Both the position numbers and the translations under genes were made by a program. From a virus, in IMG/VR virus record IMGVR_UViG_3300027969_003010, positions 1 through 64,000 of that record: a stretch of DNA of 64,000 nucleotides; one strand, given 5' to 3'. Within the stretch, counting starts at the first letter, position 1; each line of letters starts with the position of its first letter. The notes under the pieces are model-generated. The model was given only the letters and a program-made list of their open reading frames with translations, ran no database searches and was not told where the DNA came from. Below, piece by piece: positions 1,472 to 33,309 of this stretch.

Positions 1472-2311
1472 ATGAGAAGTCATTATTGGACATGCAGTAA
1501 GTTTGCAGATTGGGTTCGTGGCACTGCCAAGCTCAGCGCAGGTACGAGTGAAGAGTGGGACGACTGGACTACCGCCGCACAAATGAAACACAACTTTCGT
1601 TATTGGCTAGCGGAAGAAGGAATTGACTATGTTCAAAAATTTGTTTACTACATACCGGATAAATTAAATGATGTACGCTATTATATTAATAATCGCTGGG
1701 TTAGCCACAGCCATGCTCTTACCGCCCATCCTCGCGACATACAGCCGGGTAATTGGAGCGATGTTGGCAATCGCTTTCTTCCTTGTATGTTCAATGAGCT
1801 TGTGGACTTTGTGGAAATAGAACAAGCATGGCATCACTGCATGTGGAGTGACGACGCCAAAACAGAATATGAAGTGCCTTGGTGGCGTAGTGGTTGGCTA
1901 CGTTTGCGTACATGGCGTAATGCCAAAGCTGGCATGGAATATCTAAAGTGGGCAAGTGAACTTAAAGTGGACGAGAACATGGGGTCCAATCCTGATGAAA
2001 AAGGATACGGTGAGCCGACTTATCAGGCCAAGGCCGCTAAGGAAATTATTGAACTTTACACTTGGTGGACGGTTACCTATCGCAACCGTCCAGATCCTTA
2101 TGACGCAAGTGGCTGGAGTGCTTATTGTGATGCTATGCGAGTAAAGTATCCAGGCAGTTTCTTTTCCAGCTTAAACAGCAAGGATGCTGAAGATCGTAAA
2201 GCCAGCGACAAAGCACACAAACTGCTTACTAAGATTGAAAAGGCTTATGAAGCAGAAGACGAAGCTATGATGATTCGTCTTATCAAAATTAGACAAAGCC
2301 TTTGGACCTAA
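1472..2311 (+). CDS. conserved-type phage protein, function unknown
   Basis: 279 residues, rich in tryptophan and aromatic residues (for example MWSDD, PWWRSGWLRLRTW, YTWWTVTYRNRPDPYD). Mostly alpha-helical character, no signal peptide or membrane segment, no catalytic motif I can name. The start has AAGGAATT eight bases upstream. The C-terminus is charged and helical (KAHKLLTKIEKAYEAEDEAMMIRLIKIRQSLW is summarised here as a coiled segment near 245-279). The stop codon overlaps the ATG of the first radical SAM gene by one base (TAATG), which places it at the head of that operon. Function is not inferable. Confidence 0.75.
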   Translation: MRSHYWTCSKFADWVRGTAKLSAGTSEEWDDWTTAAQMKHNFRYWLAEEGIDYVQKFVYYIPDKLNDVRYYINNRWVSHSHALTAHPRDIQPGNWSDVGNRFLPCMFNELVDFVEIEQAWHHCMWSDDAKTEYEVPWWRSGWLRLRTWRNAKAGMEYLKWASELKVDENMGSNPDEKGYGEPTYQAKAAKEIIELYTWWTVTYRNRPDPYDASGWSAYCDAMRVKYPGSFFSSLNSKDAEDRKASDKAHKLLTKIEKAYEAEDEAMMIRLIKIRQSLWT

Positions 2312-3711
2312 TGAAGGGCGATGAAGTAACTAACATAAACGGCCGATTCGAATCAAAATACTTAAATGATTCTGAGTCGGTCTTTTCTGCCCTTAACGAA
2401 GTCAGCCCTAGCTTTTGTCTTGCCAAGTGGTACAATGTAAGCATACACATACCCACAGGCCGCACACACAGTTGTTATCATCCGCCTACACATCAGATTC
2501 CCTTAAAGGAAATTGCTATAGATGTGTCGGCACTACACAATACCCGGTATAAAAAGAATCAGCGTAAACTCATGCTCAAAGGTGAGCGGCCTATCGAGTG
2601 CGGATTTTGCTGGCAAATTGAAGATAGTGGCACACAGTTAAGCGACAGAGCTTATCGTAGCAAGGATGTGTATGAGCCAGGACTTATTGAAGAAGCACTG
2701 ACTATAGAGAACCCTAATCCACGCTATGTGGAGGTAAACTTTAATCAAGCCTGTAACTTGAAATGTAGTTACTGCTCTCCGCATCTAAGTACAGAGTGGA
2801 ACAAAGAAATAGACCGGCACGGTGCGTATCAATTAGCAGACGGCAAAACACATAACGACACACAATGGATGCGTAACCAAAATATGGTTCCTAACAACAG
2901 TTTAGACAATCCATACTTGCTAGCATTTTGGGAATGGTTGCCACAAATATATCCAACGCTACACACCTTCCGTATGACCGGTGGTGAGCCCTTGATGGAT
3001 AAGAATACATTCCGAATGTTTGATTATGTTAAAGAACACCCAAGTGAAAAGTTACATTTGAGCATTACATCAAACTGTTGCCCGCCTAAAGGGCAATGGG
3101 ACAAGTTCATGACCAGTTTGAAAGAGATTACAGACAATGATGCTATCAATCATTTTATGTTGTTCTGTAGTTTAGACTCTTGGGGCGCTCAAGCGGAGTA
3201 TATTCGTAACGGATTAGACTTTTGTACGCTATATACCAACGTAACTGACTATTTGAAGAACAGTAGCAAACACAGTCTTACATTTATTATCACATTCAAC
3301 GCCTTAAGCTATACAGGCTTTGTTAAGTATATTAAGAACATACATAAATTAAGACAAGAATACAATACAGATAGACAACTTGTTTGGTTTGATATTCCTA
3401 TGTTGAATGACCCTATGTGGTTGAATCCTAAACTGCTACCAGAGATGGTTACAGAGTTAGAACATGCTATGGAGTTTATGAAAGCAAATGAAGAAAGTGA
3501 ACACAATCGCTTTAAAGGATTTAAAGATTTTGAAATTAGCAAAGTGCAACGCTTAATTGATTGGGTTAAGAATGACAGCAAGTTTGACAGAGCCACAGCA
3601 ATGAAAAACTTTTACCTATTCTTTAGCCAGCACGATGAACGCAGGGGAACAAGTTTTTTAAATACATTCCCTGAACTAACAGACTTTTGGAACACTTGTG
3701 AAAAAACATAA
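2311..3711 (+). CDS. radical SAM protein with N-terminal twitch-like cluster domain (copy 1)
   Basis: Radical SAM enzymes cleave S-adenosylmethionine to start radical chemistry. Starting at the ATG that overlaps the upstream stop (466 residues), the SAM-cluster motif CNLKCSYC lies near residues 148-155 and the SAM-binding motif TGGEP near 226. Before the core sits a second cysteine set: FCLAKW (near 36), SCYHPP (near 55) and ECGFCW (near 97-100), the pattern of a twitch/SPASM-like auxiliary iron-sulfur site, here N-terminal. C-terminal signature FFSQHDERRGTSF recurs in copies 2-3. A TTG 9 bases upstream is a less likely start. First of four tandem paralogues; the product is unknown. Confidence 0.88.
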   Translation: MKGDEVTNINGRFESKYLNDSESVFSALNEVSPSFCLAKWYNVSIHIPTGRTHSCYHPPTHQIPLKEIAIDVSALHNTRYKKNQRKLMLKGERPIECGFCWQIEDSGTQLSDRAYRSKDVYEPGLIEEALTIENPNPRYVEVNFNQACNLKCSYCSPHLSTEWNKEIDRHGAYQLADGKTHNDTQWMRNQNMVPNNSLDNPYLLAFWEWLPQIYPTLHTFRMTGGEPLMDKNTFRMFDYVKEHPSEKLHLSITSNCCPPKGQWDKFMTSLKEITDNDAINHFMLFCSLDSWGAQAEYIRNGLDFCTLYTNVTDYLKNSSKHSLTFIITFNALSYTGFVKYIKNIHKLRQEYNTDRQLVWFDIPMLNDPMWLNPKLLPEMVTELEHAMEFMKANEESEHNRFKGFKDFEISKVQRLIDWVKNDSKFDRATAMKNFYLFFSQHDERRGTSFLNTFPELTDFWNTCEKT

Positions 3712-5047
3712 CGAAACAGATTTAGATTATAAAAAGCGTTTAATAGATCGTATTAGTCCTACATATTGTGGTGCCAAATGGTACAACGCTACAATCTGGC
3801 TTGGATCAGGCCGCACAACGTCTTGCCATCACCCACCTGCGCACCAAGCAGATGTACAAGTAATTAAATTTAATCCTAAAGCAATACATAATACTCCTCA
3901 GAAAAAAGAGGATAGACGTATGATGCTGGCTGGTGAACGACCTCCCGGTTGCGAATACTGCTGGAAGATTGAAGACATGGGTACTGACAAAGTAAGTGAC
4001 CGTGTTTACAAAACTATGACCTACGATGACGAATCTAATTTATTGGCCGCACAAACACCTGTAGATCAAGATGTAGATTTGCAAACTCTTGAGATAGCAT
4101 TTGACCGTACTTGTCAGTTTGCCTGTAGTTATTGTAATCCGGCGTTTAGTACTACGTGGGTTAAAGATATTAAGAAAAACGGACCTTATGAAAAGTTAAC
4201 TACAGACGGACGTGGACACTTTATTCATATTCATGAAAAAGATCAACTGTATGACTTTCACGAAACGAATCCATACGTTGAAGCGTTCTTTGCATGGTGG
4301 GAAACAGACTTGCATCGTACTCTTAAAGAGTTACGTATTACTGGTGGTGAGCCATTAATGAGCGGCCATACTTGGAAGTTGTTTGATTGGTTTAAATCTA
4401 ATCAAGGCAAAAGTTCTGCACAGTTGGCTATTAACAGTAACTTAGGTTTTGACCGTAGTGTAGTACAGCGTATGCTAGACAGCACAGAAGGTGTTAAGAT
4501 GATGCTGTACACTAGCAATGAAGCATTTGGCCCACAGGCTGAATACATTCGCGATGGGCTAGATTGGAATCAGTGGTTAGATAACGTTGAATTTTTATTA
4601 GATAGTAAGCGTATGCCAGTTGTGCTTATGTGTACCATAAATGCATTATGCTTAGATAGTCTGGATGTATTCTTAGACAAAATGATGACTTGGAAAGAAA
4701 AGTATGGACGTCATCAGCTTATGTTAAGTCTTAATATTCTAAGGTTTCCTAGTTTCCAAGGACCATTAGTATTGCCAGAAGAGTTACGTCAGCATTATAA
4801 ACAACGGCTGTCTGCTTGGTACGATAGAAATAAAGATAACCGTAATTTAAACGAGTTTGAAAAAAACAATGTCGAGCGTTTGTTAGATTATCTCGATATT
4901 GTTAAGACTCCGCACGGCGAAGGGTTTGTAAGAGAAAGTGCAGAAAAAGATTTTAAAAACTTTTATGAGCAATATGATGTACGTAGAGGCAAGAACTTTA
5001 GAACAACATTTAGTCCAACACTAGTTGAGTGGTATGAATCTATTTAA
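3698..5047 (+). CDS. radical SAM protein with N-terminal twitch-like cluster domain (copy 2)
   Basis: 449 residues from a GTG that overlaps the previous gene by 14 bases. Core cluster motif CQFACSYC at residues 139-146; TGGEPLM near 217. Auxiliary cysteines C24 (YCGAKWYN), C43 (SCHHPPAHQ), C85 and C88 (GCEYCW) are spaced as in copy 1. The conserved IHNTPQK and MLAGERPP blocks lie between. C-terminal signature FYEQYDVRRGKNFRTTF matches copies 1 and 3. The protein aligns end to end with its neighbours, so tandem duplication and divergence is the simplest history. No substrate-binding feature identifies the target; a peptide or carbohydrate substrate is possible. Confidence 0.88.
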   Translation: MKKHNETDLDYKKRLIDRISPTYCGAKWYNATIWLGSGRTTSCHHPPAHQADVQVIKFNPKAIHNTPQKKEDRRMMLAGERPPGCEYCWKIEDMGTDKVSDRVYKTMTYDDESNLLAAQTPVDQDVDLQTLEIAFDRTCQFACSYCNPAFSTTWVKDIKKNGPYEKLTTDGRGHFIHIHEKDQLYDFHETNPYVEAFFAWWETDLHRTLKELRITGGEPLMSGHTWKLFDWFKSNQGKSSAQLAINSNLGFDRSVVQRMLDSTEGVKMMLYTSNEAFGPQAEYIRDGLDWNQWLDNVEFLLDSKRMPVVLMCTINALCLDSLDVFLDKMMTWKEKYGRHQLMLSLNILRFPSFQGPLVLPEELRQHYKQRLSAWYDRNKDNRNLNEFEKNNVERLLDYLDIVKTPHGEGFVRESAEKDFKNFYEQYDVRRGKNFRTTFSPTLVEWYESI

Positions 5048-6359
5048 TTGGTTTAAGCCTACCGATCCTACTAAAAAGTACATATACTTTAAAGAAGAAA
5101 AAATGGATCCTATTAGTCCTTCGTACTGCGGAGCAAAGTGGTACGAAGGAACAATATGGTTGTATCAAGGATCTACTGCTAACTGTCATCATAACCCGTT
5201 TCATAAAATTACATTAGATCCTGCTAACCCTAGCAGTATATACAACACTCCTCAAAAAATAGAGGAACGTGCTAGTATGCTCAAAGGAGGTAAGCCCGAT
5301 GGATGTAGTTATTGTTGGGCTACGGAAAATGCTGGGCAGATTAGCGACAGGATTATTAAAACATCGGGTATTAATAAAAAACAAATAGCCAATAGAGCGT
5401 TATCTTCAATCCCTCAAATTTTAGAAATAGCATTTGAAAGGACTTGTAATCTTGCCTGTGCATATTGCGGGCCACATTTCAGTAGCAAATGGGCCACTGA
5501 TATTAAACGTAACGGACCGTATGTTGGATTGATATCTGATAGTAGATACACTACTGATTCAGGAAAAGATATTATAGATCCAAATAATAATCCATATGTA
5601 GATGCGTTCTTTGCTTGGTGGCCAGAGATAGAATCTGAACTACCTGTTTTAAAAATTACAGGCGGCGAACCTTTAATGAGTCCTAGTTTTTGGAAGTTTT
5701 TAGATTTACTTAATGTTACTAAAAAGTTTAAAGGGACATTAAAAATCAATACTAATCTGATAAACCATAAAGACGAAATTGAACGTCTTATAAACAAAAC
5801 TAAAGGTTTTAAAGTTCGTATGCATACTAGCATGGAAAGTAGTTTATCGCAATCTGAGTATGTTAGGGACGGGTTTGATAAGGACAACTGGTTATCTAAC
5901 GTAGAAAAGATTCTTTCAACTACCGACATGATTGTAATTATAAGTACTAGTATTAATAACCTTGCAGTATGGAGTTTTATTGACTACTTAAATTTAATAA
6001 CAGAGTTAAAGATCAAATACGGCAAAAAGCGTGTTATTACCAACTGTAACTTTGTACATTATCCTGTGTTCATGCGTGTACAAATGATACCGCAGGAACT
6101 GCGTCAGCCAATTGCCAACGAAGTATCTGTATGGTATGATGCTAATCGTAAACGACTCGATAGTACCGAGCAAGGATACATTGTTAGATTTATTAATACA
6201 TTGAATGATGCACCTTGTAGTTTAGAAAACACACATCATACTATGGAAGATGCGCATAAGGATTTAAAGAATTTTATTGCGCAGTATGATCAACGGAGAA
6301 ATAAAAATTTTAGAAAAGTCCTGGATCCAAGATTTGTGGCGTGGCATGACACAATCTAA
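5034..6359 (+). CDS. radical SAM protein with N-terminal twitch-like cluster domain (copy 3)
   Basis: 441 residues from an ATG 14 bases inside the previous gene; an in-frame TTG at 5025 is a weaker alternative. Auxiliary cysteines in YCGAKWYEG (C32), NCHHNPFHK and GCSYCW; core cluster CNLACAYC near residue 141; TGGEPLMS near 211. C-terminal FIAQYDQRRNKNFRKVL matches copies 1 and 2. It is closest in layout to copy 2. The N-terminus carries about 20 extra residues before the first cysteine. All expected iron-sulfur ligands are present, so it should be catalytically competent rather than a decayed duplicate. Confidence 0.87.
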   Translation: MNLFNWFKPTDPTKKYIYFKEEKMDPISPSYCGAKWYEGTIWLYQGSTANCHHNPFHKITLDPANPSSIYNTPQKIEERASMLKGGKPDGCSYCWATENAGQISDRIIKTSGINKKQIANRALSSIPQILEIAFERTCNLACAYCGPHFSSKWATDIKRNGPYVGLISDSRYTTDSGKDIIDPNNNPYVDAFFAWWPEIESELPVLKITGGEPLMSPSFWKFLDLLNVTKKFKGTLKINTNLINHKDEIERLINKTKGFKVRMHTSMESSLSQSEYVRDGFDKDNWLSNVEKILSTTDMIVIISTSINNLAVWSFIDYLNLITELKIKYGKKRVITNCNFVHYPVFMRVQMIPQELRQPIANEVSVWYDANRKRLDSTEQGYIVRFINTLNDAPCSLENTHHTMEDAHKDLKNFIAQYDQRRNKNFRKVLDPRFVAWHDTI

Positions 6360-7551
6360 TAATTGGTACTGTAAATTGCCCTGGACTGGATTTAGTAATG
6401 ATCCAGACGGGAAAGCACGGCCGTGTTGTCTATATAAAGATTATATTAAAGACGACGCTGGTAAAATTATGTATGTACAAACTAGTACAGTCAGAGAAAT
6501 ATTTACTAGCAACTACATGAAAAATCTACGTCAGGATTTTAGAGACGGAAAACAACCCGCGGCATGTAGTACTTGTATTATAGATGAACAGAATAATTAC
6601 ACTAGTAAACGTCAACGCTATAACGACCAGTACAATAAAGAAATGCCTGTTAATTTTGACAAAGAGCCAGAGTTTCCTGTTGAATATCAAATGATACTAA
6701 GCAATGCTTGTAACTTAAAGTGCCGTAGCTGTACACCAAGTCACAGTAGTTTGTGGCAAGCCGAGCATAAAGTTATATGGGGTAATACTGGATACAGTAT
6801 GCCTGAAGGCCAAAGTGGAGAGAACGACAGCGTACTATGGCATAAACGAGATGAGTGGTTGCCTAGCGTACAACGTTTAGAGATTGTAGGCGGCGAACCA
6901 TTTTACATTAATCGTTGGAAGTTGCTGTGGGAAGAACTAATTGCAAAGGGACTTAGTAAAAAAGTCAATATGGATATTAGTTCTAACGGAACAATCTATG
7001 CCGGTGAAGTCGTTGAGAAATTAGTTAATAATTTTAGAAGTATTGGGCTAGGTTTGAGTATAGATGGCATGGGTCCGTTATACGAATATTTGAGACATCC
7101 AGGCAAGTGGGACGAGGTAGAAACTAATATAAAACAGTACCACGAACTACGCAAACAACTGGACACTAAAAGTTTTAGAGTAAGTATTAGCCACACGATA
7201 GGCTGGCTTAATGCATGGGAGCTTCCTGAGTTCCATACTTATATTAAAACACAAGCGCCGCTATTTGTAATATGGAACAATATTATACATTACCCGCAAC
7301 ATATGGCCATTTATATGATTCCTGCAAGTTTAAAACAACGTATAGAAGCTAAGTGGAGAGCATATGATTGGGGCACATATACCAACGACATAGAAGGTAT
7401 CATAACTTATATGAATAGTCAACAACCTACTGATGTAGAAATACGCAAAGCATACGAAACATTTAAAACACACGATGCAGTACGTAATGAAAACTTGTTA
7501 GACGTTATACCGGCAGAAATTATAGACGAGATTAAACCCTACTATGAATAA
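6346..7551 (+). CDS. radical SAM protein with twitch-like domain (divergent copy 4)
   Basis: 401 residues from the ATG that overlaps the previous gene by 14 bases; a longer frame reaches 6277 but lies wholly within copy 3. Auxiliary cysteines: C9 (YCKLPW), C27-C28 (RPCCLY) and CSTC near 74; core cluster CNLKCRSC at 122-129; the SAM motif is VGGEPFY rather than TGGEPLM. This arrangement (FCxxPW, PCC, CxxC, then CxxxCxxC) is that of the widespread phage twitch-domain radical SAM family, whereas copies 1-3 form a separate subgroup with CHHPP in place of PCC. The C-terminal FKTHDAVRNENLLDVIP is a relic of the shared signature. Product unknown. Confidence 0.88.
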   Translation: MTQSNNWYCKLPWTGFSNDPDGKARPCCLYKDYIKDDAGKIMYVQTSTVREIFTSNYMKNLRQDFRDGKQPAACSTCIIDEQNNYTSKRQRYNDQYNKEMPVNFDKEPEFPVEYQMILSNACNLKCRSCTPSHSSLWQAEHKVIWGNTGYSMPEGQSGENDSVLWHKRDEWLPSVQRLEIVGGEPFYINRWKLLWEELIAKGLSKKVNMDISSNGTIYAGEVVEKLVNNFRSIGLGLSIDGMGPLYEYLRHPGKWDEVETNIKQYHELRKQLDTKSFRVSISHTIGWLNAWELPEFHTYIKTQAPLFVIWNNIIHYPQHMAIYMIPASLKQRIEAKWRAYDWGTYTNDIEGIITYMNSQQPTDVEIRKAYETFKTHDAVRNENLLDVIPAEIIDEIKPYYE

Positions 7552-8074
7552 GATTTGGATATTTGGTGATAGCTTTGCTTCAAGCAAACATAGTTACGCT
7601 TGGACGTCACTATTAGCTGACCGCGGTACAGTTATCAACCAAGCATCTAATGGCAGTAGTGAATACAGAATTTGGAAGAAGTATCACGCAAATAAACAAT
7701 TAATTACAGATAATGATATTGTAATTTTTTGTCATACTTCTCCAAGCAGAATATTTTTAAAAGATAATTCATCACTTCTGAGTCGCATGTTACCTAGCCA
7801 TCCGTTGTGCGATTTAATTGTTAATGATATATTTGCCAAACAAGAAAATCGTTTTATTAAGATCCTTAAGGAAATTTGGGACGATGAATACTTCCAAGAT
7901 ACGTTTGATATGCTAGTATCCAATTTAAAATCAGTTCCAAACAGTATACATTTAAATTTTTTTGAAGCAGGTGTATGCAATACTGCATGGAAAGATTTTC
8001 CTGGCGAGATAAACCATTTAAATATAACTGGCAATCAATTAGTATTTCAACATATAGTTAAACAATTACCATGA
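7544..8074 (+). CDS. SGNH/GDSL-type hydrolase
   Basis: 176 residues. Block I IFGDSFASS (residues 5-13) carries the nucleophile serine, block II/III is represented by the NQASNGSSEYRIW stretch near 33, and the C-terminal NHLNITGNQ supplies the histidine of the Dx(x)H block. These are the SGNH fold hallmarks; members deacylate lipids or deacetylate sugars and peptidoglycan. It starts 8 bases before the stop of the fourth radical SAM gene and ends overlapping the next by 4 bases (ATGA), so it is part of the same translational unit. No signal peptide, hence a cytoplasmic substrate such as a biosynthetic intermediate is likely. Confidence 0.75.
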   Translation: MNKIWIFGDSFASSKHSYAWTSLLADRGTVINQASNGSSEYRIWKKYHANKQLITDNDIVIFCHTSPSRIFLKDNSSLLSRMLPSHPLCDLIVNDIFAKQENRFIKILKEIWDDEYFQDTFDMLVSNLKSVPNSIHLNFFEAGVCNTAWKDFPGEINHLNITGNQLVFQHIVKQLP

Positions 8075-8790
8075 GAATAGTTGCATTTGGAAGCAGTCAT
8101 ACTACAGGATATAACTTAGATGACTTTAAAAATTTAACAGCTAATGCGGTAAGCAAGTACGCTTTCCCCCAAGTCGTTGCGGATATGTTTAAATGCGAGT
8201 GTTTAAATTTAGGCAAAAACGGTAACGGAATAGATCAGATATACACAGATGTATTTGGGTATCTAGGTCAGCATCAACCTACAGACTTTGTTATAATACA
8301 ATTACCATCTAATCCCACATGGTTTAAATTGATAACATCCGATGACGATTCAATTAGTATCATCAATCCAGATAGTTTAGACTTTAAAAATCGTAAATTT
8401 CAAAATGCCTTACAACAATATTACGGACTGCTAACTGGTAATAACCACTGGCACCGATTGTGGTATATAAATTTTTATAGTCTAATTAATTTATTACATT
8501 CAAGAAACATTAAATTTGTATGGTTCTTTGATTCATTTTGCGATCCGTGGGGTAGAATAGATTTGATGATTTCCAGACTTCCTAAAGATGTGCAACACGA
8601 AGTACACAATCTAAAAAATGCAAGTCCAGATCCTGCTACTACTCACATTGACAAATTATTTGCTGAGCATTTGTCTAAAAATATACCAAATAGTTTAAAA
8701 CCTTGCGGACATTATGATCAAACTGGACATCGTTTCTGGGCTGAAAATGTTTTAATACCATACATACAAGAGAGATTAACACATGACTAA
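8071..8790 (+). CDS. SGNH-like protein with GSS block I
   Basis: 239 residues. VAFGSSHTTGY (residues 4-14) occupies the SGNH block I position but the usual GDS is GSS; CLNLGKNGNGIDQIY near 45 resembles the block II/III oxyanion region, DFVIIQLPSN near 75 the central strand, and GHYDQTGHRFWAE near 213 the terminal D/H block. The GSS form is common in distant phage and bacterial members, so it may be active or a binding protein. It overlaps both neighbours (4 and 8 bases) and follows directly another SGNH-type gene, suggesting two related but distinct steps such as acyl transfer and removal. Confidence 0.65.
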   Translation: MRIVAFGSSHTTGYNLDDFKNLTANAVSKYAFPQVVADMFKCECLNLGKNGNGIDQIYTDVFGYLGQHQPTDFVIIQLPSNPTWFKLITSDDDSISIINPDSLDFKNRKFQNALQQYYGLLTGNNHWHRLWYINFYSLINLLHSRNIKFVWFFDSFCDPWGRIDLMISRLPKDVQHEVHNLKNASPDPATTHIDKLFAEHLSKNIPNSLKPCGHYDQTGHRFWAENVLIPYIQERLTHD

Positions 8791-10021
8791 AGTAGCAATG
8801 ATTGGCTTAGGTAAATTAGGTTTGCCGTGTGCTGAAGTTATGGCTAAGTTTTATGACGTTTCAGGCTACGATATAAATCTAGTTGACCCAACTATGACTG
8901 TAGCTATTAAACCTTCGATTGAGGCCGCAGTGGCTGATAGAGATTTTATCTTTGTAGCAGTACCAACACCGCACGATCCAATGTACGGAGGTAGTAAACC
9001 TATTGCAGGATTGCCAAGTAAAGATTTTGATTACAGTATTGTGCAGGAAGTATTAACTGAAATTAATAAACATGTTACACACGAACAGTTAGTAGTATTA
9101 ATCAGTACAGTATTGCCAGGTACAGTTCGCGCACATTTGCGTCCATGTATTACAAATGCACGATTCATTTACAATCCATACTTGATTGCCATGGGTAGCG
9201 TTAAATGGGACATGGTTAATCCAGAGTGTTTAATTGTTGGTACAGAAGATGGCAATTGGACTGACGATGCTATGGCTATTGTTAACTTCTACAAACCTAT
9301 GATGGAAAGAGATGACACAAGAGTTAACATTGGTACATGGGATGAAGCAGAAGCTATTAAAGTATTTTACAACACGTTTATCTCTGCTAAGATTGGTCTA
9401 GTAAATATGATTCAAGACGTTGCAGAAAAGAACGGCAACATAAATGTAGATGTAGTAACAGATGCTCTTAAAGCCGCAACACAGCGCATTACAGGCCCAC
9501 GTTACTTAACGGCAGGCATGGGCGATGCTGGTGCTTGCCATCCTCGAGATAACATTGCCTTGCGATTCCTTGCAGAACGTTTAGATTTAGGCTACGATTT
9601 GTTTGAAGCTATCATGCACAGTAGAGACCAGCAAGCAAAGAATATGGCTCTTAAACTTGTTAAACTTGCTAAGGAGCATAACTTACCAGTCGTTATACAC
9701 GGTCGTGCATACAAGCCGTATGTTGAGTATACAGTTGGTAGTTATAGCGAGCTAGTTGGACACTTTGTAGAAGAAGCAGGCATTAGTATACAATATGCAG
9801 ATCCTTTAACCGGAGATAAAGTCAAAGATGGAACGGTAGCTGTTATCTTAGTAGCTCACGATCCGGCAATAACTTATGCTGGAACAGGCGTAGAAATAAA
9901 AGATGATGCGTTCTATTTTGAATTTGGAGCAGGTAGTGTTGTATTAGACCCATGGCGAACTATAAATGATGTAGCTGGATGTACCGTTGTGCATTACGGT
10001 AATACAAGGATTAAATTATGA
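8783..10021 (+). CDS. nucleotide-sugar 6-dehydrogenase (UDP-Glc/GDP-Man family)
   Basis: 412 residues, usual length for UDP-glucose/GDP-mannose dehydrogenases, which oxidise an NDP-sugar to the uronic acid with two NAD+. The N-terminal Rossmann motif GLGKLGLPCAEVMA is at residues 8-21, FVAVPTPHD near 55, STVLPGT near 112, and the catalytic cysteine lies in GACHPRDNIAL near 252, corresponding to the family GGxCxPKDxxAL. The C-terminal half carries HGRAYKPYVEYTVGS, equivalent to the family GxxFKxxxxDxRxS segment. It provides a uronic acid precursor to the following tailoring genes. A second, truncated family member occurs at the end of the window. Confidence 0.88.
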   Translation: MTKVAMIGLGKLGLPCAEVMAKFYDVSGYDINLVDPTMTVAIKPSIEAAVADRDFIFVAVPTPHDPMYGGSKPIAGLPSKDFDYSIVQEVLTEINKHVTHEQLVVLISTVLPGTVRAHLRPCITNARFIYNPYLIAMGSVKWDMVNPECLIVGTEDGNWTDDAMAIVNFYKPMMERDDTRVNIGTWDEAEAIKVFYNTFISAKIGLVNMIQDVAEKNGNINVDVVTDALKAATQRITGPRYLTAGMGDAGACHPRDNIALRFLAERLDLGYDLFEAIMHSRDQQAKNMALKLVKLAKEHNLPVVIHGRAYKPYVEYTVGSYSELVGHFVEEAGISIQYADPLTGDKVKDGTVAVILVAHDPAITYAGTGVEIKDDAFYFEFGAGSVVLDPWRTINDVAGCTVVHYGNTRIKL

Positions 10022-10521
10022 AATGGTATACTGGCCGTATAGACCCATTCTGGGGAACTAAACATAGAGATCTAGAATATCGCCGTGGTAGATATAATAA
10101 TCTTAAAGATTTAGAAACATGGGAACAGCTAGGTCTTAAACTCAATGCGGCAGGCGGCGATGTATATGATATGAAAAATATTATGCCTGAATGGGCTAAT
10201 CCGTTTTTTACACTATTCAAAGGTATAAATGTTGGTATAAGTTTTTTTAGAATGAATACAGGCGATATACTTCCTACACATCAGGATACATACGAAGTAT
10301 ATCGTAAAGTTAACAACATTATTGACCCGTCAACAATTAACAGAGCCATAATATTTTTAGAAGATTGGCGACCCGGGCATATTTTTGAAATAGCAGGAAG
10401 TCCAATAACTAGTTGGAAGGCTGGAGATTATGTTGTGTGGAATTATGATGTTGCACACATGGCGGCAAATTTGGGAATACAACCAAGATACACCATGCAA
10501 ATAACTTTTACAAATGTTTGA
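10018..10521 (+). CDS. 2-oxoglutarate/Fe(II)-type oxygenase-like protein
   Basis: 167 residues. The double-stranded beta-helix metal triad pattern is visible: H88 and D90 in PTHQDTY, H147 in YDVAHMAANLG, with R157 in PRYTMQI ten residues later in the position of the 2-oxoglutarate carboxylate ligand. The intervening strands (RAIIFLEDWRPGHIFEI, ITSWKAGDYVVWNY) fit aspartyl/prolyl-hydroxylase-like phage proteins. Expected chemistry is oxidative hydroxylation of a sugar, nucleotide or peptide. ATGA overlap with the dehydrogenase upstream and an 8-base overlap with the aminotransferase downstream. Family assignment is by motif spacing only. Confidence 0.68.
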   Translation: MKWYTGRIDPFWGTKHRDLEYRRGRYNNLKDLETWEQLGLKLNAAGGDVYDMKNIMPEWANPFFTLFKGINVGISFFRMNTGDILPTHQDTYEVYRKVNNIIDPSTINRAIIFLEDWRPGHIFEIAGSPITSWKAGDYVVWNYDVAHMAANLGIQPRYTMQITFTNV

Positions 10522-11104
10522 TACAGTAACAAAATTTGAAAGCGCAATAGCAGAGTTCTACGGAGCTCCGTATGCTGTTGCCACTGACTGTTGTACCCAT
10601 GCTATTGAGCTATGCTTACGACTGACTAAACCATCCAATGTTGCCTGTCCAAAGAATACGTACCTAAGTGTTCCTATGACGTTTGCAAAATTAGGAATAG
10701 ATTGGCAATTCATAGATCTACAATGGCAAAATTATTATTATCTTACTAATACAAATATTATCGATGCCGCTGTATACTGGCAAGCTGGTGGATTTCAAAA
10801 AGGATACTTTAACTGTCTAAGTTTTCAATTTAAAAAACATTTAAATTTAGGTCGAGGCGGAATGATACTAACTGACGACAAAGAAGCCGCAATACAATTA
10901 AAAAAGATGAGCTACGACGGACGTACTCCTAGCATGCCGTGGATGGATCAAGATGTTGACACGCTGGGTTATCATTATTATATGACTCCCGAAACAGCCC
11001 AACTTGGGTTAGATAAATTAGAGCAAGCTAAAAATACACAGTCACGTAACTGGACTTATCAGGATTATCCAGACATTTCAACTATGAAGGTGTTCAATGT
11101 TTAG
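10514..11104 (+). CDS. short DegT/DnrJ/EryC1/StrS-type aminotransferase
   Basis: PLP-dependent transfer of an amino group, usually to a keto-sugar or cyclitol. Family landmarks are in order: GAPYAVATDCCTHAIEL (residues 17-33), the DAAxxWQAG segment near 84 equivalent to the EDAAHA aspartate that contacts PLP, and SFQFKKHLNLGRGGMILTDD with K108 at the Schiff-base lysine. YYMTPETAQLGLDKLEQ near 152 matches the conserved NYRMxxxxAAxGxxQL block. At 196 residues it ends right after this block, while typical members have about 370, so the C-terminal small domain is missing. No frameshift partner is seen; the next gene is a different family. Confidence 0.75.
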   Translation: MFDTVTKFESAIAEFYGAPYAVATDCCTHAIELCLRLTKPSNVACPKNTYLSVPMTFAKLGIDWQFIDLQWQNYYYLTNTNIIDAAVYWQAGGFQKGYFNCLSFQFKKHLNLGRGGMILTDDKEAAIQLKKMSYDGRTPSMPWMDQDVDTLGYHYYMTPETAQLGLDKLEQAKNTQSRNWTYQDYPDISTMKVFNV

Positions 11105-12065
11105 TAAGAATGAATGGGATCCACTTAAAAAAGTAATAGTAGGTGTTGCAGACTATGCAACAATACCTCCATTAGATATTAGTTTACGTACTGTTAATTA
11201 CGCAGATGTTAAAGACACAACTGTAATCAAATCAGGGCAATATCCAAAGCAGGTTATTGACGAAGCTAATGAAGACTTAGAAACACTTGCTAATTTTTTA
11301 AAAGGTTGTGGGGTAGAAGTTTTACGTCCTACGCCTGGGCCTGTGGAATACTACAACTATTGTCCTAGAGATACAACAATTGTTTATAAAGATAACGCTA
11401 TTGTTGCGCCCATGACTATTAAGGCTAGACGCAACGAATATCAGCATTATGCACAGCATTTAACGAACATTCATACAGTACCAAACTACCAAGGCGATGA
11501 CATTTATAATTTAGAATGTTTAGGAAATAAGGATACATTAGCATTACATAATACACATCCTAAATTTGATGCGGCAAATGTAATAAGGGCCAACGATGAT
11601 CTATTGTATCTTGTTTCAAATACCGGTAACAAGTTAGGCGCACAATATTTGCAAGAGCTGTTGAATGTCAAAGTACACACGTTAGAAAATGTATACAGTT
11701 ATATACATATTGACAGTACTATTGCATTTTTACGTGAAGGATTAATGTTATTAAATTCAAGTAGGATCAAAGACGTAAACGTATTGCCAGAGCCGTTTAG
11801 AAGTTGGGACTATATCATGTGCCCAGAACCTATTGATATTGGACATTACCCAGGGTACTGTAATGCTAGCACCTGGATAAATGTAAATTTACTAAGTGTA
11901 AATCCAAACTTAGTTATATTAGAAGAACATCAGCATAATTTAAGAATAGAATTAGAAAAGAAAAATATAGATTGTGCAATGCTACCCATGCGACATGCTC
12001 GTACATTGGGCGGATGTTTTCATTGTGTAACATTGGATCTGGTTAGAGATCATGCAAATCATTAA
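11097..12065 (+). CDS. amidinotransferase (glycine/inosamine amidinotransferase family)
   Basis: 322 residues. Family transfers an amidino group from arginine to an amine, forming a guanidino compound, through a cysteine adduct. The N-terminal EWDPLKKVIVG is typical; CPRDTTIV (near 108) gives the conserved PRD; HIDSTIAFL places H204 and D206 as catalytic pair; GGCFHCVTLD places the nucleophile at C310. These match arginine:glycine and StrB-type amidinotransferases. It overlaps the aminotransferase gene by 8 bases, the same functional pairing as in streptidine biosynthesis, so the aminated product upstream is the likely acceptor. An arginine deiminase-like activity is the main alternative. Confidence 0.82.
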   Translation: MFSKNEWDPLKKVIVGVADYATIPPLDISLRTVNYADVKDTTVIKSGQYPKQVIDEANEDLETLANFLKGCGVEVLRPTPGPVEYYNYCPRDTTIVYKDNAIVAPMTIKARRNEYQHYAQHLTNIHTVPNYQGDDIYNLECLGNKDTLALHNTHPKFDAANVIRANDDLLYLVSNTGNKLGAQYLQELLNVKVHTLENVYSYIHIDSTIAFLREGLMLLNSSRIKDVNVLPEPFRSWDYIMCPEPIDIGHYPGYCNASTWINVNLLSVNPNLVILEEHQHNLRIELEKKNIDCAMLPMRHARTLGGCFHCVTLDLVRDHANH

Positions 12066-13314
12066 TAAACTAAAAAATTTATTGCCTGGTCGTGTCCCGG
12101 CAAATGATTTTCAACGAGAATTATTATGGGGCAATCTTCCATTTATAGAAGATAATCATGCATACTTAAAATATGTAATGAAAAAATGTTTTTTTGCAAA
12201 ATTCAAATATCCTTATATATTGTATACCTTTCATAGTAGGATTCTAGAGTTAGAAGAATTTACATTAGATCAAAGGCAATTAGATGCATTAAAAAATCAA
12301 ACACTATACATTTTTTTGTACGAACCTATTTCATTTTTTGTAGATAAATTTAATAGAGGATTCTATAGCGAATTTACTAGTGATATAGATCTTAACATGT
12401 TAAAGTCATATGAGTTAGATAGTGTAGAAATTTTTGCAAAGAAATATAATTTAAACATAGTCGTCTGCACTTGCGAATACGAAATAGAATTGCTACAACC
12501 TCAATATAAACATTTTAAACTGGTGTGTTTTGATTCTTTTATAAGACGTGGACAACGACAGCGTCCTAATCCAATACAACACTTGTTTCCAAATTTATCT
12601 AAAATTAACAAAAAGTTTTGGTCAGGTAATTGGCGCTATACATTGCACAGACATATCATAATGTCGTATCTTACTAATTTCGAAGGTAATTACAGTTGGC
12701 ATTTTAATGCTAACCCTGATAATATAGAACATAACGAATGGTTCAATGTTAAAATAATTCCCCAACATCTTTACGAAAAATTAAAAATTGGATCAAACAA
12801 ATTACTAACTACTAATTATTCCATTGATCACGGAACCTTACAAGTTGAAGCTAACGAATTGAATCGAGCATACAAACCTGGAGACCATCCTCACACAGGT
12901 AATGACAACAAACTTTGGGAATCATACGATCAATCGTTCTGTGCTATTGTAACAGAAACTCGATTTGCCCAACCGTTTGCTAACTTTAGCGAAAAAACAC
13001 TTTTAGCAATTCGAGCCCAGATTCCATTTATTGTTGTTGCTCCGCCTAAAACTTTAGAGTACATTAAACAGTTTGGATTTAAAACGTTTGACAAATGGTG
13101 GGATGAAAGTTACGATCAGGAGCAGGATCACGCAAAAAGAATGATTAAGATTTTGAATTTGATTGAGCATATTAGTTCAAAACCCTTAGAGGAACTAATC
13201 AAAATTCGAAAAGAAATGAAGTATGTACTCAAACATAACTATAAAATCAACCAAAAAATACAATACAATACGACATATAAGTTGACAAACGGGTCCGATA
13301 GTGTTATACTATAG
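12052..13314 (+). CDS. possible glycosyltransferase-like phage protein
   Basis: 420 residues, no membrane segment. The C-terminal third contains SEKTLLAIRAQIPFIVVAPP (residues 313-332), followed by LEYIKQFGFKTFDKWWDESYD, a combination recurrent in phage proteins associated with sugar-modifying clusters and reminiscent of the nucleotide-sugar-binding half of GT-B enzymes (an EKT/acidic region followed by GF..F..WWDESYD). The N-terminal two thirds shows no motif I recognise. It overlaps the amidinotransferase gene by 14 bases and closes the operon. Attaching the finished sugar to an acceptor is a reasonable but unproven role. Confidence 0.5.
   Translation: MQIINKLKNLLPGRVPANDFQRELLWGNLPFIEDNHAYLKYVMKKCFFAKFKYPYILYTFHSRILELEEFTLDQRQLDALKNQTLYIFLYEPISFFVDKFNRGFYSEFTSDIDLNMLKSYELDSVEIFAKKYNLNIVVCTCEYEIELLQPQYKHFKLVCFDSFIRRGQRQRPNPIQHLFPNLSKINKKFWSGNWRYTLHRHIIMSYLTNFEGNYSWHFNANPDNIEHNEWFNVKIIPQHLYEKLKIGSNKLLTTNYSIDHGTLQVEANELNRAYKPGDHPHTGNDNKLWESYDQSFCAIVTETRFAQPFANFSEKTLLAIRAQIPFIVVAPPKTLEYIKQFGFKTFDKWWDESYDQEQDHAKRMIKILNLIEHISSKPLEELIKIRKEMKYVLKHNYKINQKIQYNTTYKLTNGSDSVIL
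13282..13310 (+). promoter_or_regulatory. sigma-70-type promoter for the 13341 gene
   Basis: Exact TTGACA at 13282-13287, 17-base spacer, TATACT at 13305-13310. It lies in the last codons of the possible glycosyltransferase gene and 30 bases before the next ATG, which has AGGAG upstream. This is an early-type host-polymerase promoter. Confidence 0.85.
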
Positions 13315-14628: not shown

Positions 14629-16119
14629 ATGAGCCAACTATTCACGATATTAGACGATAAAATTGTTATTAACAAGGCCCTACTACGTCATGTAGAAGGC
14701 CCTACTTCCCTTACTGGATCGCTAGAAATTATAGGCGGCGCTAGCATACAAGATAACTTGGTTGTAAAAGGCAAAATTTATGCTGATTCAATCGAAGTTA
14801 ATCAAATTATTAATAAAGGCGCAACCGGCGACGGCGCGGCTTTTAAAGCAGACGACGAAGCAAGTTTGAATGGCCAGGGTGTTACATGGAATGTAGGCGA
14901 AGAACAAAGCACACTCGTGTATCGTCCCGGGAACAGATTATATACTAACCTACATTTAGATTTAGAGCGCGATCGTGCTTACAAAATTGATAACATTGAA
15001 GTACTAACTGGCAACACATTAGGTAGCAGTATTAGCCGTTCAAGTTTGCGTCAATTAGGCCCATTAAACAATTTGATTGTTAATGGCAATGTTGAAATTG
15101 GACAGTTTGTTTACATCGATAGCGACACAGGTCGCGTTGGATTTGGCACAGAAAGTCCTAACGGTTCATTTAGTATTGTTGATAACGGTGCAGAATTTGT
15201 TATAGGAAGTCCAAATAGCGGAACCGTAAACGTAGGTACTTACAGCAACCACGATGTAGCAATTACTACAGATAATATTCCCCGTATTACAATTAAAACT
15301 GGTGGAGATATACACGTTGGAAATGTTACTAGTCGAGGTGCTAAGTTAGTTGTACACGGTACAATCCAAGCAGAGAATATTGTTACTGAAACAAAAATTG
15401 AAAGAACAGATAGCGTTAAATTCTTAGCAACAGACGGATCAGTATACGGCATTGGTCTACAATGGACAGGCTCAGGCAACATTAAACAATTGATTTTACG
15501 TCCAGATCCAAATAGAATATGGTCGAGCGAGCACATTGAACTTGCCCGTGGCCGTAGTTTGATGATTAACAACAATCCTATTATAGATGAAACTACTATA
15601 GGATCAACAGTAACCCAATCAAGTTTAACATCACTTGGTGATCTAGGAACACTAACAGTATTAGGCAATACATTATTATCAGGTTCTACATCTGCACAGT
15701 CTATAAATGCTAAAGAAATTAACTTTGGTGAAGGCAGTCAATTGGTGAAGGTTAACGATAGAGGTATTACCACTAGCTTGGGCTTTAACCTAACAGTTGG
15801 CGAACAGAACATCATTTATGCCGATAGCGGAAGCATCACAATTGGTTCTTCTGAAAATACTCGTAGACAAATTCGAGCATTTGGAACATTGAGCGTCAAC
15901 GTAAACAATCCAGATCCAGAATTACAGTTTGCAGTAGCTGGTAACATTGGCTTTGGTGGACGAAAATTCATTACAGGTACGAGTGCGCCTGAACAAGGCA
16001 ATTACAATGTTGGCGACATTTGCTGGAGCAATATTCCACAAATTGGTGGCAACGTTGGATGGATCTGCTGTAACGCAGGATCTCCAGGCATGTGGTTCAA
16101 ATTCGGAATGATAAGTTAA
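14629..16119 (+). CDS. tail-fibre-like virion protein
   Basis: 496 residues, beta-rich with repeated short strands and turns (for example SLTGSLEIIGGASIQDNLVVKG written here only in part: LEIIGGASIQDNLVVKG). Two internally related segments occur: one with GNTLGSSISRSSLRQLGPLNNLIVNGN is echoed by TIGSTVTQSSLTSLGDLGTL later, meaning a repeated collagen-free fibre module. The C-terminus GDICWSNIPQIGGNVGWICC then GSPGMWFKFGMI resembles the tip domain of phage fibres that ends in GWxC.TAGTPG.W..FG. Preceded by a late promoter. Adsorption or baseplate-associated role inferred. Confidence 0.75.
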   Translation: MSQLFTILDDKIVINKALLRHVEGPTSLTGSLEIIGGASIQDNLVVKGKIYADSIEVNQIINKGATGDGAAFKADDEASLNGQGVTWNVGEEQSTLVYRPGNRLYTNLHLDLERDRAYKIDNIEVLTGNTLGSSISRSSLRQLGPLNNLIVNGNVEIGQFVYIDSDTGRVGFGTESPNGSFSIVDNGAEFVIGSPNSGTVNVGTYSNHDVAITTDNIPRITIKTGGDIHVGNVTSRGAKLVVHGTIQAENIVTETKIERTDSVKFLATDGSVYGIGLQWTGSGNIKQLILRPDPNRIWSSEHIELARGRSLMINNNPIIDETTIGSTVTQSSLTSLGDLGTLTVLGNTLLSGSTSAQSINAKEINFGEGSQLVKVNDRGITTSLGFNLTVGEQNIIYADSGSITIGSSENTRRQIRAFGTLSVNVNNPDPELQFAVAGNIGFGGRKFITGTSAPEQGNYNVGDICWSNIPQIGGNVGWICCNAGSPGMWFKFGMIS

Positions 16120-16229: not shown

Positions 16230-16712
16230 ATGGCAAAATTTTACTCAACAAAAACTTACGGTAACGACAGAGGCTTATCCTGCTGTTTTAGACAATGGCG
16301 TAGCACACACAGCCATTGCTCATTACTGCACGGATATTCAATTGGTATCAAACTCATATTTGAATGTGATACACTGGACGACAAAAACTGGTGTATGGAC
16401 TTTGGTGGACTTAAAGGATTTAAAGAGTGGGCAGATCATATGTTTGATCATACTTTGGTAGTTGCCCAAGATGATCCTCAACTAGAAATGTTCAAGCAAA
16501 TGGCTAGTTTAGGTTTGCAGGATCAAAGCGGAGTGTGTGATTTACGCATTGTACCTGCTGTAGGCTGTGAAATGTTTGCCAAACTTGCTTTTGACAAAAT
16601 GGCTGAACTATTGTCTGCGGGAAATATGACCTATCCAATCAATCCAACAGTTAGGATCAAATCAGTTGAAGTATTTGAACACGGAGCCAACTCGGCCATC
16701 TACGAAAGCTAA
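16230..16712 (+). CDS. queD: 6-pyruvoyltetrahydropterin synthase/QueD family protein
   Basis: 160 residues. Family members convert 7,8-dihydroneopterin triphosphate to 6-carboxy-tetrahydropterin on the way to preQ0 and queuosine/7-deazaguanine. THSHCSLLHGYS (residues 26-37) holds the cysteine and histidines; canonical enzymes have HGH for zinc and here it is HGY, so one ligand is altered. DFGGLKGF, FDHTLVVAQDD and VEVFEHGANSAIY are the other conserved blocks. A phage copy could feed tRNA queuosine or 7-deazaguanine DNA modification, but no other deazaguanine gene (QueC, QueE by clear identity, or DpdA) is recognised in the window; the radical SAM genes here are not QueE-like in length. Confidence 0.85.
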   Translation: MAKFYSTKTYGNDRGLSCCFRQWRSTHSHCSLLHGYSIGIKLIFECDTLDDKNWCMDFGGLKGFKEWADHMFDHTLVVAQDDPQLEMFKQMASLGLQDQSGVCDLRIVPAVGCEMFAKLAFDKMAELLSAGNMTYPINPTVRIKSVEVFEHGANSAIYES

Positions 16713-18949: not shown

Positions 18950-21900
18950 ATGGCACGTCAAGAAATAGACATTGGTATACAAGGTAATGACGGAACAGGC
19001 GATAGTATTCGTGACTCGTTCCGTAAGGTTAATGATAACTTTGCTGAGATTTATGCAGTTTTTGGATCTGGAGGTACAATTCCATTTACAGCATTAAGTG
19101 ATGCGCCAAGCTCTTATACTGCTAATCAAATATTCATTACAAACAGTTCTGGTACAGGAATTCTTGCTAAGACACTTGCACGTCGTGGTGGAGTAACTTT
19201 TGACGAATCTGTAGCCGGTGTATTAACTATTGTTGGTACTCAAAGTAACTTGGCCGCAGACCCAGCGCCACGTTTAAACGGGCCGCTAAACGTTAATAAT
19301 CTAGCTATTGGTAACATTCCTGATCCAAGCGACACACTAGTTGCATCATTTAATTCAACCTATTCAAGCCTTGGTATTACTACTACTATTGATAAACTTG
19401 CAATTAGCAAAGGATATGCCGATACCCACTACGTGGGCAAGGGTGACGGCAACGTTGTAGTAGGTGCGTTAAAATTACGTGACGAGCCACTAACTCCTGA
19501 ATTAACAGATTCAGCTTATGATGCAACATTGAGCAGTAACTACCTAAGTAACGAAGCATTGCCACGTAAATCAGTTGTTTATCGCGGTGGTGATACCATG
19601 CTAGGTAAACTTACACTAAGCGATCACCCTGCTCCGGTAGCAGGATTTGGTACACCTAACAGTGCTGATGATAAACAGGCCGCTACAAAATTTTATGTTG
19701 ATAACGAAGTATTTGTCAGCTCAACAAACTTGTATGTTCGTACAGACGGCGATGATACACAATTAAAAACACCTCCTGGCCGTGAAGGTCGCAACTGGGC
19801 ACACGCCTATAAGACCATTGGAGCGGCCGCTTTACAAGCTGAAACTTTACAAAATCTTGCAAATTTAGAACCTGGACCTTATCGTCAGAAAATTGCATAT
19901 ACTATTAGCCCTAATACGTTTAATTCTACTATTTCTACAGTAACTCGATCTGGTGGAAATACTGGTATTGCTGGGTATGAAGATGCGGCTTTTTTGCTTG
20001 GTGCTAACAAAGCATTTATTCAATCGGAAACTATTGCTTACATTAACAACAAATATGTTAACATATTCACATATGACCAAGCAAAGTGTCAGCGCGATGT
20101 ACAAATTATTTTAAATGCTGTTGCTACTGACCTTGTTATTAGCTCCAACTTTAATAGTTTGCAAGCCGCTACTTCTTACTTTGAAAGTCAAGCGGCAAGT
20201 GTTATAAACAGTCAATTAGTTCAAACTATTGACGGTATTAACTATGCTAGAGATCAAGTGCTGGCCTTTGCATATAATTCATCAGGACTTACTACATATC
20301 TTAACACTGTAATCGATGCATTAAACTATGATATGACTTTGAATTCTAACTATCAAAGTACTGTTGCCGCTCGATATTTTCCTTATGCAAACACTGGGTT
20401 AAGTGTTACTGAAATAGTAGGAGCATTTGGACAGCTTAAATTAGAACTAGCTAATATTGCTAAGAATAACGGACTTACTGTTGATTTAGCAGTAACTCGA
20501 TTTAATAATTTACTAAACAGTATGATTATTATAGTCCAAGGCGGAATTGAACCAACTATTAATATGTCAGCAACTAGTGTATCTAGTACTGCTAAACAAA
20601 GTGCTAGAACACTATTATTAAACAATATTGCATTTGTACAAGCTGAAATTATTGCATGGTTAGCCGCAAACTATCCTAAACTTGCATATAGTCAAACTAC
20701 TTGTAAGCGCGATGTTAAGTATATTATAGAGGCGGTGGCATACGATCAACTATATGGAGGAAATAGTCGTACTGTCTATGCTGGACAACGTTATTGGGCT
20801 AATGCTGTAAGACAAATTGCCTATAGTGAATTAGCCGCTACTAAGGGTGCCTATGGATATTTAAAAACATTATTACAAGCAGTCATCAGTAATAATAGTC
20901 CATCGCAAGTCTATCAAAATAGTGTTATTCAGTATCAAAATCAAACCTACACTGGTGGCAGTGGGCAGATTGCAACTGTTTCTAATTTAATATCATTAAT
21001 AGCAGGAACAACTATTGCTACAGCATCGACAAACTCTAGTACTGGAATTTCCACTACTAGTACGTCTAACCTTACTGTTGGAATGCCTGTCATTATTGAT
21101 AACTCTACTCCAATCACAGTTACCGGATTCCAAACTAAATCAGGTTCAGGTCCATACTTAGTAACCTTGATAATACCAACACAATTAACTGCTCCAATAG
21201 CTGGTACATCGTTTACTGTTAGTGGTAATGTAACTACTGGTTATAACGGCATAGTTACAGTTTTCAGTGCTACAACAACTTCTATAACATTAAGTTATTC
21301 AGCTAATCCAGGTTCATGGGGCGGCGGCACAACTATTATTACTCCATATTTTGGAGGTCTTATTGCTGGCGGAACTTACTACGTTATAGAAATTACAAAT
21401 GCTACTCAATTTAAATTAAGTACAAGTCTTGGCGGTACCGCGGCAACATTAACTAATGCATTAGTTTATACAAATATAACATGGAATGGATTACTAACTG
21501 CTAATACTCCTCCTGCAATTACTCCTCCAACTTATTCTGCTGGTGCAAGTCCATTGCCAACAGTGTACACTAATGTGAATAATAATAAAGGAACTGCAAC
21601 TACTGGTCCAATTTTTAATGTAATTACATTTGTTAATAACACATATCCATACATTAACAATGCTCCTGCAATTGCACAACTTACAACTTTATTTAAATTT
21701 GTTACTGATACGCTTTCTGGTGGTTTATCAAATAGAGAACTGGTATCGTTAACTAAGCCAACTTCTACATCTACATCGGCATTTAGTGCTAGTAAATTAC
21801 TTTTAGCTAACCGTGAATTTATTGCGGCGGAAACATTAGGGTGGATTAAACAGAATTATAATTCGTTAACTTATGTTGCTACCGATGGACAAATACAATG

Positions 21901-32782: not shown

Positions 32783-33309
32783 TGGCTAAACAAGTAATTA
32801 ACACTGGCACTGCGGCAAATGCCAAAAACGGTGATCCGTTGCGCACGGCTTTTACAAAAGTAAATGCAAACTTCGATGAACTGTACACAGCTATGAATGC
32901 CGATGTGCAAATCCCAACACAGACTGGCAATGGTGGAAAGTTTTTAACTACTAGTGGTACTGTACTAAGTTGGTCAGACCCTTCCTTACAATCAAAAGCT
33001 GTTAGAAATGTTGGCTCAGTGGCCGCGGCTGGAACTGTTACTTTAGATTACAGTACAGATTCCGTTGTACGTGCTACAGCAACAGGGTCTACTATAACGA
33101 TTGCCCACTCTAATATAACGTCAGGTAAGGTAGTAGAATTAATACTATCAAATACTAGTGGTGCGGCTTGTACAGTGACAGTAGGAGTTGCAGGAACAAA
33201 TACTATTAATAACAGTACAACCTATGCCATTGGTAATAATACTACACATATTTTTACAGGTAGAAGCTTTGGAACAACAACCACTGACGTTTACGTTACA
33301 GTAGTCTAA
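32782..33309 (+). CDS. small fibre-like virion protein
   Basis: 175 residues; ATG overlaps the stop of the giant gene by one base (TAATG). The N-terminus MAKQVINTGTAANAKNGDPL then RTAFTKVNANFDELY repeats the start motif of the giant protein and of the next gene. The remainder is beta-rich and ends in a TTTDVYVTVV strand, similar to a small trimeric fibre or fibre tip. With its neighbours it forms a set of fibre components sharing one docking motif, which implies a common virion attachment site or assembly partner. Confidence 0.72.
   Translation: MAKQVINTGTAANAKNGDPLRTAFTKVNANFDELYTAMNADVQIPTQTGNGGKFLTTSGTVLSWSDPSLQSKAVRNVGSVAAAGTVTLDYSTDSVVRATATGSTITIAHSNITSGKVVELILSNTSGAACTVTVGVAGTNTINNSTTYAIGNNTTHIFTGRSFGTTTTDVYVTVV

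Follow-up and report, generated by a model that had tools for sequence, protein, structure and literature searches.

A half-length DegT-type protein (AT) and an L-arginine:amine amidinotransferase (AGAT) are, as far as their sequences tell, obligate partners that are inherited as a unit in dozens of aquatic phages, the pair being found in 76 viral loci (49 non-redundant). The two very probably act as consecutive enzymes of one pathway. On balance, we favor the view that the cassette to which they belong makes a guanidino sugar that is added to a phage-directed glycan, and we find it less likely that the product is streptidine or serves to neutralize DNA; the substrate and the glycan site are the parts of this view that we infer. 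The window, that is, the whole 64,000-nucleotide stretch of DNA analyzed here, belongs to a record of 70,855 bases, which is assigned to a T4-like myovirus fragment on the basis of a gp44-type clamp loader, a family B polymerase, and a gp9/10-type baseplate gene.

In the window, the pair is part of a packed gene run with successive overlaps of 4 to 14 bases. An SGNH-like gene (8071-8790) overlaps by 8 bases a UDP-glucose/GDP-mannose dehydrogenase relative (UGDH, 412 aa; 8783-10021; PF00984 3.9e-16, PF03721 5.8e-15, phrog_9148 3e-88). Four bases are shared with the next gene, a 2OG-Fe(II) oxygenase of the Asp/Asn beta-hydroxylase type (hydroxylase, 167 aa; 10018-10521; PF05118 E 0.0011, which is under the Pfam cut-off), and another eight with AT (196 aa; 10514-11104). 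AT and AGAT (322 aa; 11097-12065) overlap by 8 bases (11097-11104), and AGAT overlaps by 14 bases a predicted GT-B-fold glycosyltransferase (GT, 420 aa; 12052-13314), identified by its AF2 model (pLDDT 81.6) and structural matches. All genes from UGDH to GT, and the residues listed below, are on the + strand. A sequence-only reading had placed a StrS/DegT-type gene and an overlapping amidinotransferase gene with PRD, HID, and GGxFHC motifs at 10514-12065, and both the open reading frames with their 8-base overlap and the motifs (CPRD, HID, and GGCFHC) are present there. Upstream of the module, four radical SAM genes lie in tandem (2302-7551), and their N-terminal part is twitch/SPASM-like; NF033640 is matched by the fourth (6.5e-88), and relatives of these genes are near the module in many loci.

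AGAT carries the motifs CPRD, FDAAN, HID, and GGCFHC. The residues D92 (PRD motif, arginine binding; 11370-11372), D158 (FDAA motif, catalytic; 11568-11570), H204 and D206 (His204-Ile-Asp206, HID motif; 11706-11714), and C310 (GGCFHC motif, predicted nucleophile; 12024-12026) are invariant in the 76 phage sequences, as are R223 and S258. In the alignment, D92, D158, H204, D206, R223, S258, and C310 map to D170, D254, H303, D305, R322, S355, and C407 of GATM, and we take their roles to be those known from GATM and StrB. In a single-sequence search of the PDB, the best match, over the full length, is StrB1 (1bwd), the inosamine-phosphate amidinotransferase of streptomycin biosynthesis (E 2.1e-59, 204 bits), with HsvA and GATM near 1e-29 (105-109 bits) and no deiminase among the matches. 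A 20-sequence profile run against the whole PDB also has StrB1 first (8.4e-98; 331 bits vs 203 for GATM/HsvA), followed by GATM, HsvA, and SxtG, and its matches to E 1 hold no deiminase and nothing else meaningful beyond amidinotransferases. An arginine deiminase or DDAH is ruled out by scores under the cut-offs of PF02274 (10.4 bits, cut-off 22.8) and PF19420 (15.7, cut-off 23), and on this point the earlier assignment of the second enzyme held. AGAT has the catalytic and arginine-binding residues in common with StrB1, but it is about 25 residues shorter, keeps other gene partners, and belongs to a clade of the phages' own.

This clade, which comprises the phage sequences and one Kiritimatiellia MAG sequence (support 99/92), was obtained in a PMSF maximum likelihood tree, to which the long-branch warning applies. 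StrB1, an Actinomadura sequence, and a large bacterial clade are closer to the phage clade than GATM and HsvA, which split off at 100/98, whereas the grouping of StrB1 itself is weakly supported (95/58 and 93/54). The Campylobacter phage amidinotransferase in the tree is very divergent; its branch length carries no meaning, and its placement should be disregarded. With GATM and HsvA outside the phage clade, a glycine amidinotransferase role in the manner of creatine synthesis is ruled out. Together, score and tree put AGAT on the StrB side, closer to StrB1 than to GATM/HsvA, and we have little doubt that it is an arginine-dependent amidinotransferase, with a predicted active site that is complete.

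The assignment of AT to the StrS/DegT type stands with respect to family (PF01041, 77.2 bits with a cut-off of 19.8, E 1.8e-21, matched in two stretches) and to the PLP-binding lysine and aspartate, but not with respect to size, as the protein has about half the normal length (196 aa vs about 360-390 aa for a complete two-domain DegT chain). Profile positions of about 85-163 and 245-360 are shortened, such that every member of the family lacks ~45 residues in its large domain and almost all of its C-terminal domain. The form of 194-228 aa is constant throughout the relatives, which rules out a frameshift as its cause. A truncated pseudogene is likewise ruled out by the equal length in dozens of phages and by the AF2 model (pLDDT 94.5, pTM 0.91). 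By sequence, the short AT is a stable phage family. Lys108 (10835-10837), Asp84 (10763-10765), Ser103, Tyr50, and two glycines are invariant in the 76 relatives. Lys108 is the predicted Schiff-base lysine by alignment to 3bn1 and 3dr4, where it aligns with K186 of GDP-perosamine synthase (changed to alanine, K186A, in the 3dr4 chain), while Asp84 would bind the pyridine nitrogen of PLP, as the equivalent residue does in DegT enzymes.

The best structural matches of the AT model are the sugar aminotransferases WlaRG/WlaRF (Z 19.8, 2.4 Å, 187 residues), which is consistent with the proposal that the first enzyme is of the sugar type and not a non-sugar PLP protein. More generally, the model has the fold of DegT sugar aminotransferases (WlaRG, GDP-perosamine synthase, ArnB, and WbpE; Z 17-20 over 184-194 residues) and the PLP lysine, the aspartate, and the GxGG loop in common with them, although these enzymes are about 370 aa long. 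Other proteins, including Fic25, AHBA synthase, KabA, and NtdA, are within about 2 Z units of the best match; given this spread, the fold indicates a DegT sugar-type PLP protein and does not specify the substrate. The identity to StsC-type enzymes, represented in the comparison by an StsC-like Streptomyces homolog, is about 20-30% over parts. In the DegT family, the usual residue after the DAA motif is Gln; in AT, it is mostly Val. With the C-terminal domain gone and the large domain reduced, transaminase activity is not assured, and AT is best described, by sequence and model, as a compact DegT-fold PLP protein and a predicted aminotransferase. This raises the question of the minimum size of a DegT aminotransferase. 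The phages of loci L029-L037 have a more StrB-like amidinotransferase together with a short AT and a full-length DegT protein; the latter is 406 aa in L029 and resembles the Streptomyces enzyme.

How constant is the pair? Scans of IMG/VR gave 33 AGAT-seeded and 66 AT-seeded loci. These were chosen by sequence patterns of the window proteins, which biases the sample to relatives, and the partner gene played no part in the choice. When AGAT was the seed, 22 loci had a length of 15 kb or more; AT lies within the locus in 21 of them and elsewhere on the contig in the last (L015). Conversely, 34 of the 37 AT-seeded loci of at least 15 kb have AGAT, which was not seen in the fragments L071, L087, and L094; in a shorter AT-seeded locus (L084), AGAT is 11.5 kb further on. 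The 49 non-redundant pairs come in 14 arrangements, e.g., with a direct overlap, with the hydroxylase or five glycosyltransferases in between, or on opposite strands. The identities of AT and AGAT co-diverge over these 49 pairs (Mantel r=0.84, a value reached in none of 2000 permutations), where part of the correlation is due to shared phage ancestry. Co-occurrence and co-divergence rule out chance adjacency, and the match of AGAT to StrB1 and the recurrence of the pair show that the observation itself is not due to chance. A literature search found no report of it, and the viral amidinotransferases in the literature examined are single "glycine amidinotransferase" entries only. The predicted placement on the StrB side and the pairing argue against this label for the phage clade. 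As far as we found, the single enzymes are of known kinds, whereas their obligate partnership in viruses, with a DegT enzyme this small, has not been described.

The pair is also present in an isolate, the cyanophage S-SCSM2R (PQ898602, 231862-235529), where the run is AT, radical SAM, GT, hydroxylase, and amidinotransferase. The identities to the window proteins are 56% for AT, 27% for the hydroxylase, and 64% for the amidinotransferase. This phage lacks a close relative of the window's UGDH, and a canonical UGDH lies 32 kb away. In contrast, the amidinotransferase of the Campylobacter phages CP220 and CPt10, which is of the same family as AGAT (22-25% identity), sits among radical SAM genes, and the complete CPt10 genome holds no short AT.

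The partner genes point to a nucleotide sugar, as judged from the predicted UGDH relative and GT-B glycosyltransferase, which are often fused. Among the 55 long loci with both AT and AGAT, a hydroxylase domain is present in 45 and a UGDH domain in 30. The hydroxylase family keeps its HxD...H...R motif. Fusions of the hydroxylase with a GT, and of UGDH with a GT of like kind, occur in several relatives, and in L046, all three form a single chain of 968 aa. GT itself has no convincing Pfam match, and its profile has no sequence match in the PDB. The matches of its model are, among those listed, overwhelmingly GT-B glycosyltransferases, and they are led by T4 beta-glucosyltransferase (Z 11.9, 274 residues, 4.8 Å) with exostosin and others within about 1 unit. 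The modeled fold is GT-B, and the matches do not specify the kind of acceptor. In addition, a carbamoyltransferase family of the NodU/TobZ type is present in 49 loci (PF16861 1.7e-54 for the representative tested), and GT25-type glycosyltransferases are present in loci of the cyanophage type. In L040 (14835-19403) and 16 other loci, proteins of great length (1522 aa in L040, more than 2200 in L011) are encoded downstream of the carbamoyltransferase gene; they are rich in a repeated FDYSWxPDPxxPPYIYxWGNQW unit and match no Pfam or PHROG family.

The UGDH relative keeps the catalytic Cys252, Lys, Asn, and Asp256, with CHPRD and IKxFYN conserved among 38 aligned homologs. Where UDP-glucose dehydrogenases have NPEFLxEG, it has NPYLIAMG, and all 38 homologs lack the catalytic Glu (human E161). 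In the human E161Q mutant, a thiohemiacetal intermediate was captured (PMC3184952). One may speculate that the phage enzyme stops at the 6-aldehyde and thereby supplies AT. This idea is only speculation, because phages Bellamy and HTVC008M have a near-identical motif (NPYLIAQG in HTVC008M) and NadE-like genes adjoining UGDH, while neither AT nor AGAT is beside it there. No single gene that would form a keto sugar recurs in all loci. At 63700-69369 of the record (L185:1700-7368), outside the window, three genes lie close together that are candidates for the missing oxidation step: a second UGDH (261 aa) with the canonical motif YSPEFLRAG, one for a Gfo/Idh/MocA oxidoreductase, and one for a zinc alcohol dehydrogenase.

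Taken together, a StrB-side amidinotransferase beside a PLP protein of the sugar aminotransferase type suggests chemistry in which an amine is formed and then amidinated. In the model that we favor, UGDH or another oxidoreductase would oxidize a nucleotide-activated sugar, AT would turn the carbonyl into an amine, and AGAT would transfer the amidino group of arginine to that amine, with release of ornithine. A glycosyltransferase would then put the guanidino sugar on a phage-directed glycan, often with carbamoylation. We consider it likely that the acceptor is a sugar. The occurrence of UGDH near the pair in just 30 of 55 long loci, and also in phages where AT and AGAT are not adjacent to it, counts against this explanation. 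Its weakest step is the destination of the glycan. The likeliest bearer would be a virion protein, e.g., a tail fiber, where a side chain generated by the hydroxylase may be the attachment point; the host surface is the next candidate. A tail-fiber-like protein (14629-16119) and tail-fiber/baseplate genes (18950-33309) follow GT in the window, and in loci of the cyanophage type, upstream F7 genes have homologs that are annotated as tail fibers in isolates. The frequency of tail-fiber adjacency in T4-like phages speaks against the link, however, and we put a location on the virion at somewhat less than even. Virion glycosylation as such is known in mycobacteriophages, according to work cited in PMC12619734. 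Within the tail-gene region, an open reading frame of 4610 aa (18950-32782) has a sole match, C-terminal, to a tail-fiber PHROG.

Alternatively, the pair might make a guanidino amino acid or modify a side chain of a protein or peptide, e.g., with the help of the hydroxylase and of the nearby radical SAM enzymes. The bacterial relatives of AGAT lend some substance to this unlikely possibility. A search of bacterial genomes gave 68 loci, in none of which AT, UGDH, or the hydroxylase is present, and the nearest bacterial amidinotransferase clade adjoins NRPS and SbnA/SbnB equivalogs above cut-off (diaminopropionate genes). Hence, not every enzyme on the StrB side acts on a sugar or cyclitol, and the acceptor is unreadable from the AGAT clade alone. 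The four tandem radical SAM/twitch genes in the window fit this alternative as well, as does the location of the best bacterial relative between radical SAM genes. Against it, the DegT fold of AT matches sugar aminotransferases, the glycosyltransferase fusions tie the module to sugar transfer, and the recurrent gene families around the module have no NRPS-like member. That best relative, from a Kiritimatiellia MAG (L104:8916-15786), also has a heptosyltransferase-like gene and split transketolase genes around it. The StrB-side amidinotransferases beside NRPS and SbnA/SbnB-type genes (L105-L170) occur in marine Halieaceae and many other phyla and probably mark an uncharacterized pathway for a guanidino-amino-acid peptide.

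It had also been suggested that the pair resembles the streptidine pathway, where AT would aminate a keto-inositol and AGAT would amidinate the inosamine (phosphate) to a guanidino-cyclitol. The order of chemistry in this suggestion is supported; the pathway as such is not. StrB1 is the closest solved structure to AGAT, and a streptidine-type cluster on a plasmid of Streptomyces sp. NBC_00853 (L184) has a DegT aminotransferase gene followed by an amidinotransferase gene, as in the phage (38% identity between the amidinotransferases). However, only these two types in the cluster have homologs in the phage loci; its StrN-like kinase and GMC oxidoreductase have none. Inositol-phosphate synthase (PF01658) is absent from all 14 records searched, which are fragments except for S-SCSM2R. 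The Gfo/Idh/MocA oxidoreductase (67607-68491, outside the window), whose family includes inositol dehydrogenase, would fit a cyclitol, but PF01408 is matched in the phage's own contig only and in none of 13 relatives, and the conserved partners are UGDH and a glycosyltransferase. With the partner genes missing from the loci and records searched, streptidine proper is ruled out, and we regard any true cyclitol route as improbable.

Modification of phage DNA by a guanidino sugar or a guanidinylated 7-deazaguanine, which would include the proposed neutralization of DNA, finds little support and is very improbable: T4 beta-glucosyltransferase as the top match of GT and, in the record itself, a QueD-like gene (16230-16712) and a long open reading frame with a TGT-like GDSGGFQ motif (65684-67384) speak for it, whereas relatives of QueD and of the TGT-like frame are found in only 4 and 3, respectively, of the 19 records with the module (counting the own contig), both are missing from the complete S-SCSM2R genome (no PF01242 match), and the annotation of that genome names no hydroxymethylase, with no match to PF00303, a family that 7 of 24 records match at about 330-360 bits, presumably as ordinary thymidylate synthase. 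A 7-deazaguanine substrate is accordingly ruled out as unlinked to the module. The TGT-like frame (L185:3684-5387), outside the window, encodes 567 aa without a significant Pfam or PHROG match and is, we presume, a candidate DpdA; with the QueD-like gene, it makes a separate 7-deazaguanine DNA modification possible in this contig.

Most of what is known of guanidino sugars and cyclitols comes from a small number of antibiotics. Were phages to make such compounds as routine glycan parts, their particles would carry a fixed positive charge, which could alter how they adsorb, recognize receptors, and aggregate in seawater. The most specific form of the guanidino-sugar model, in which the virions of a widespread phage family are coated with cationic guanidino sugars made with a half-length DegT aminotransferase that lacks the C-terminal domain, is tentative and more doubtful than not; if true, it would be the first viral guanidino glycan system. 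The linkage of AT and AGAT is so faithful that it provides a clear genetic marker, and S-SCSM2R, an isolate with a cultured host (Synechococcus WH7803), makes the model testable. The same phage encodes a second, very divergent amidinotransferase (213353-214246 of PQ898602; L176:13353-14246) with about 22% identity to that of the window. Its gene directly adjoins KdsA/KdsB and 2OG-Fe oxygenase genes, perhaps as part of a guanidino-octulosonate route.
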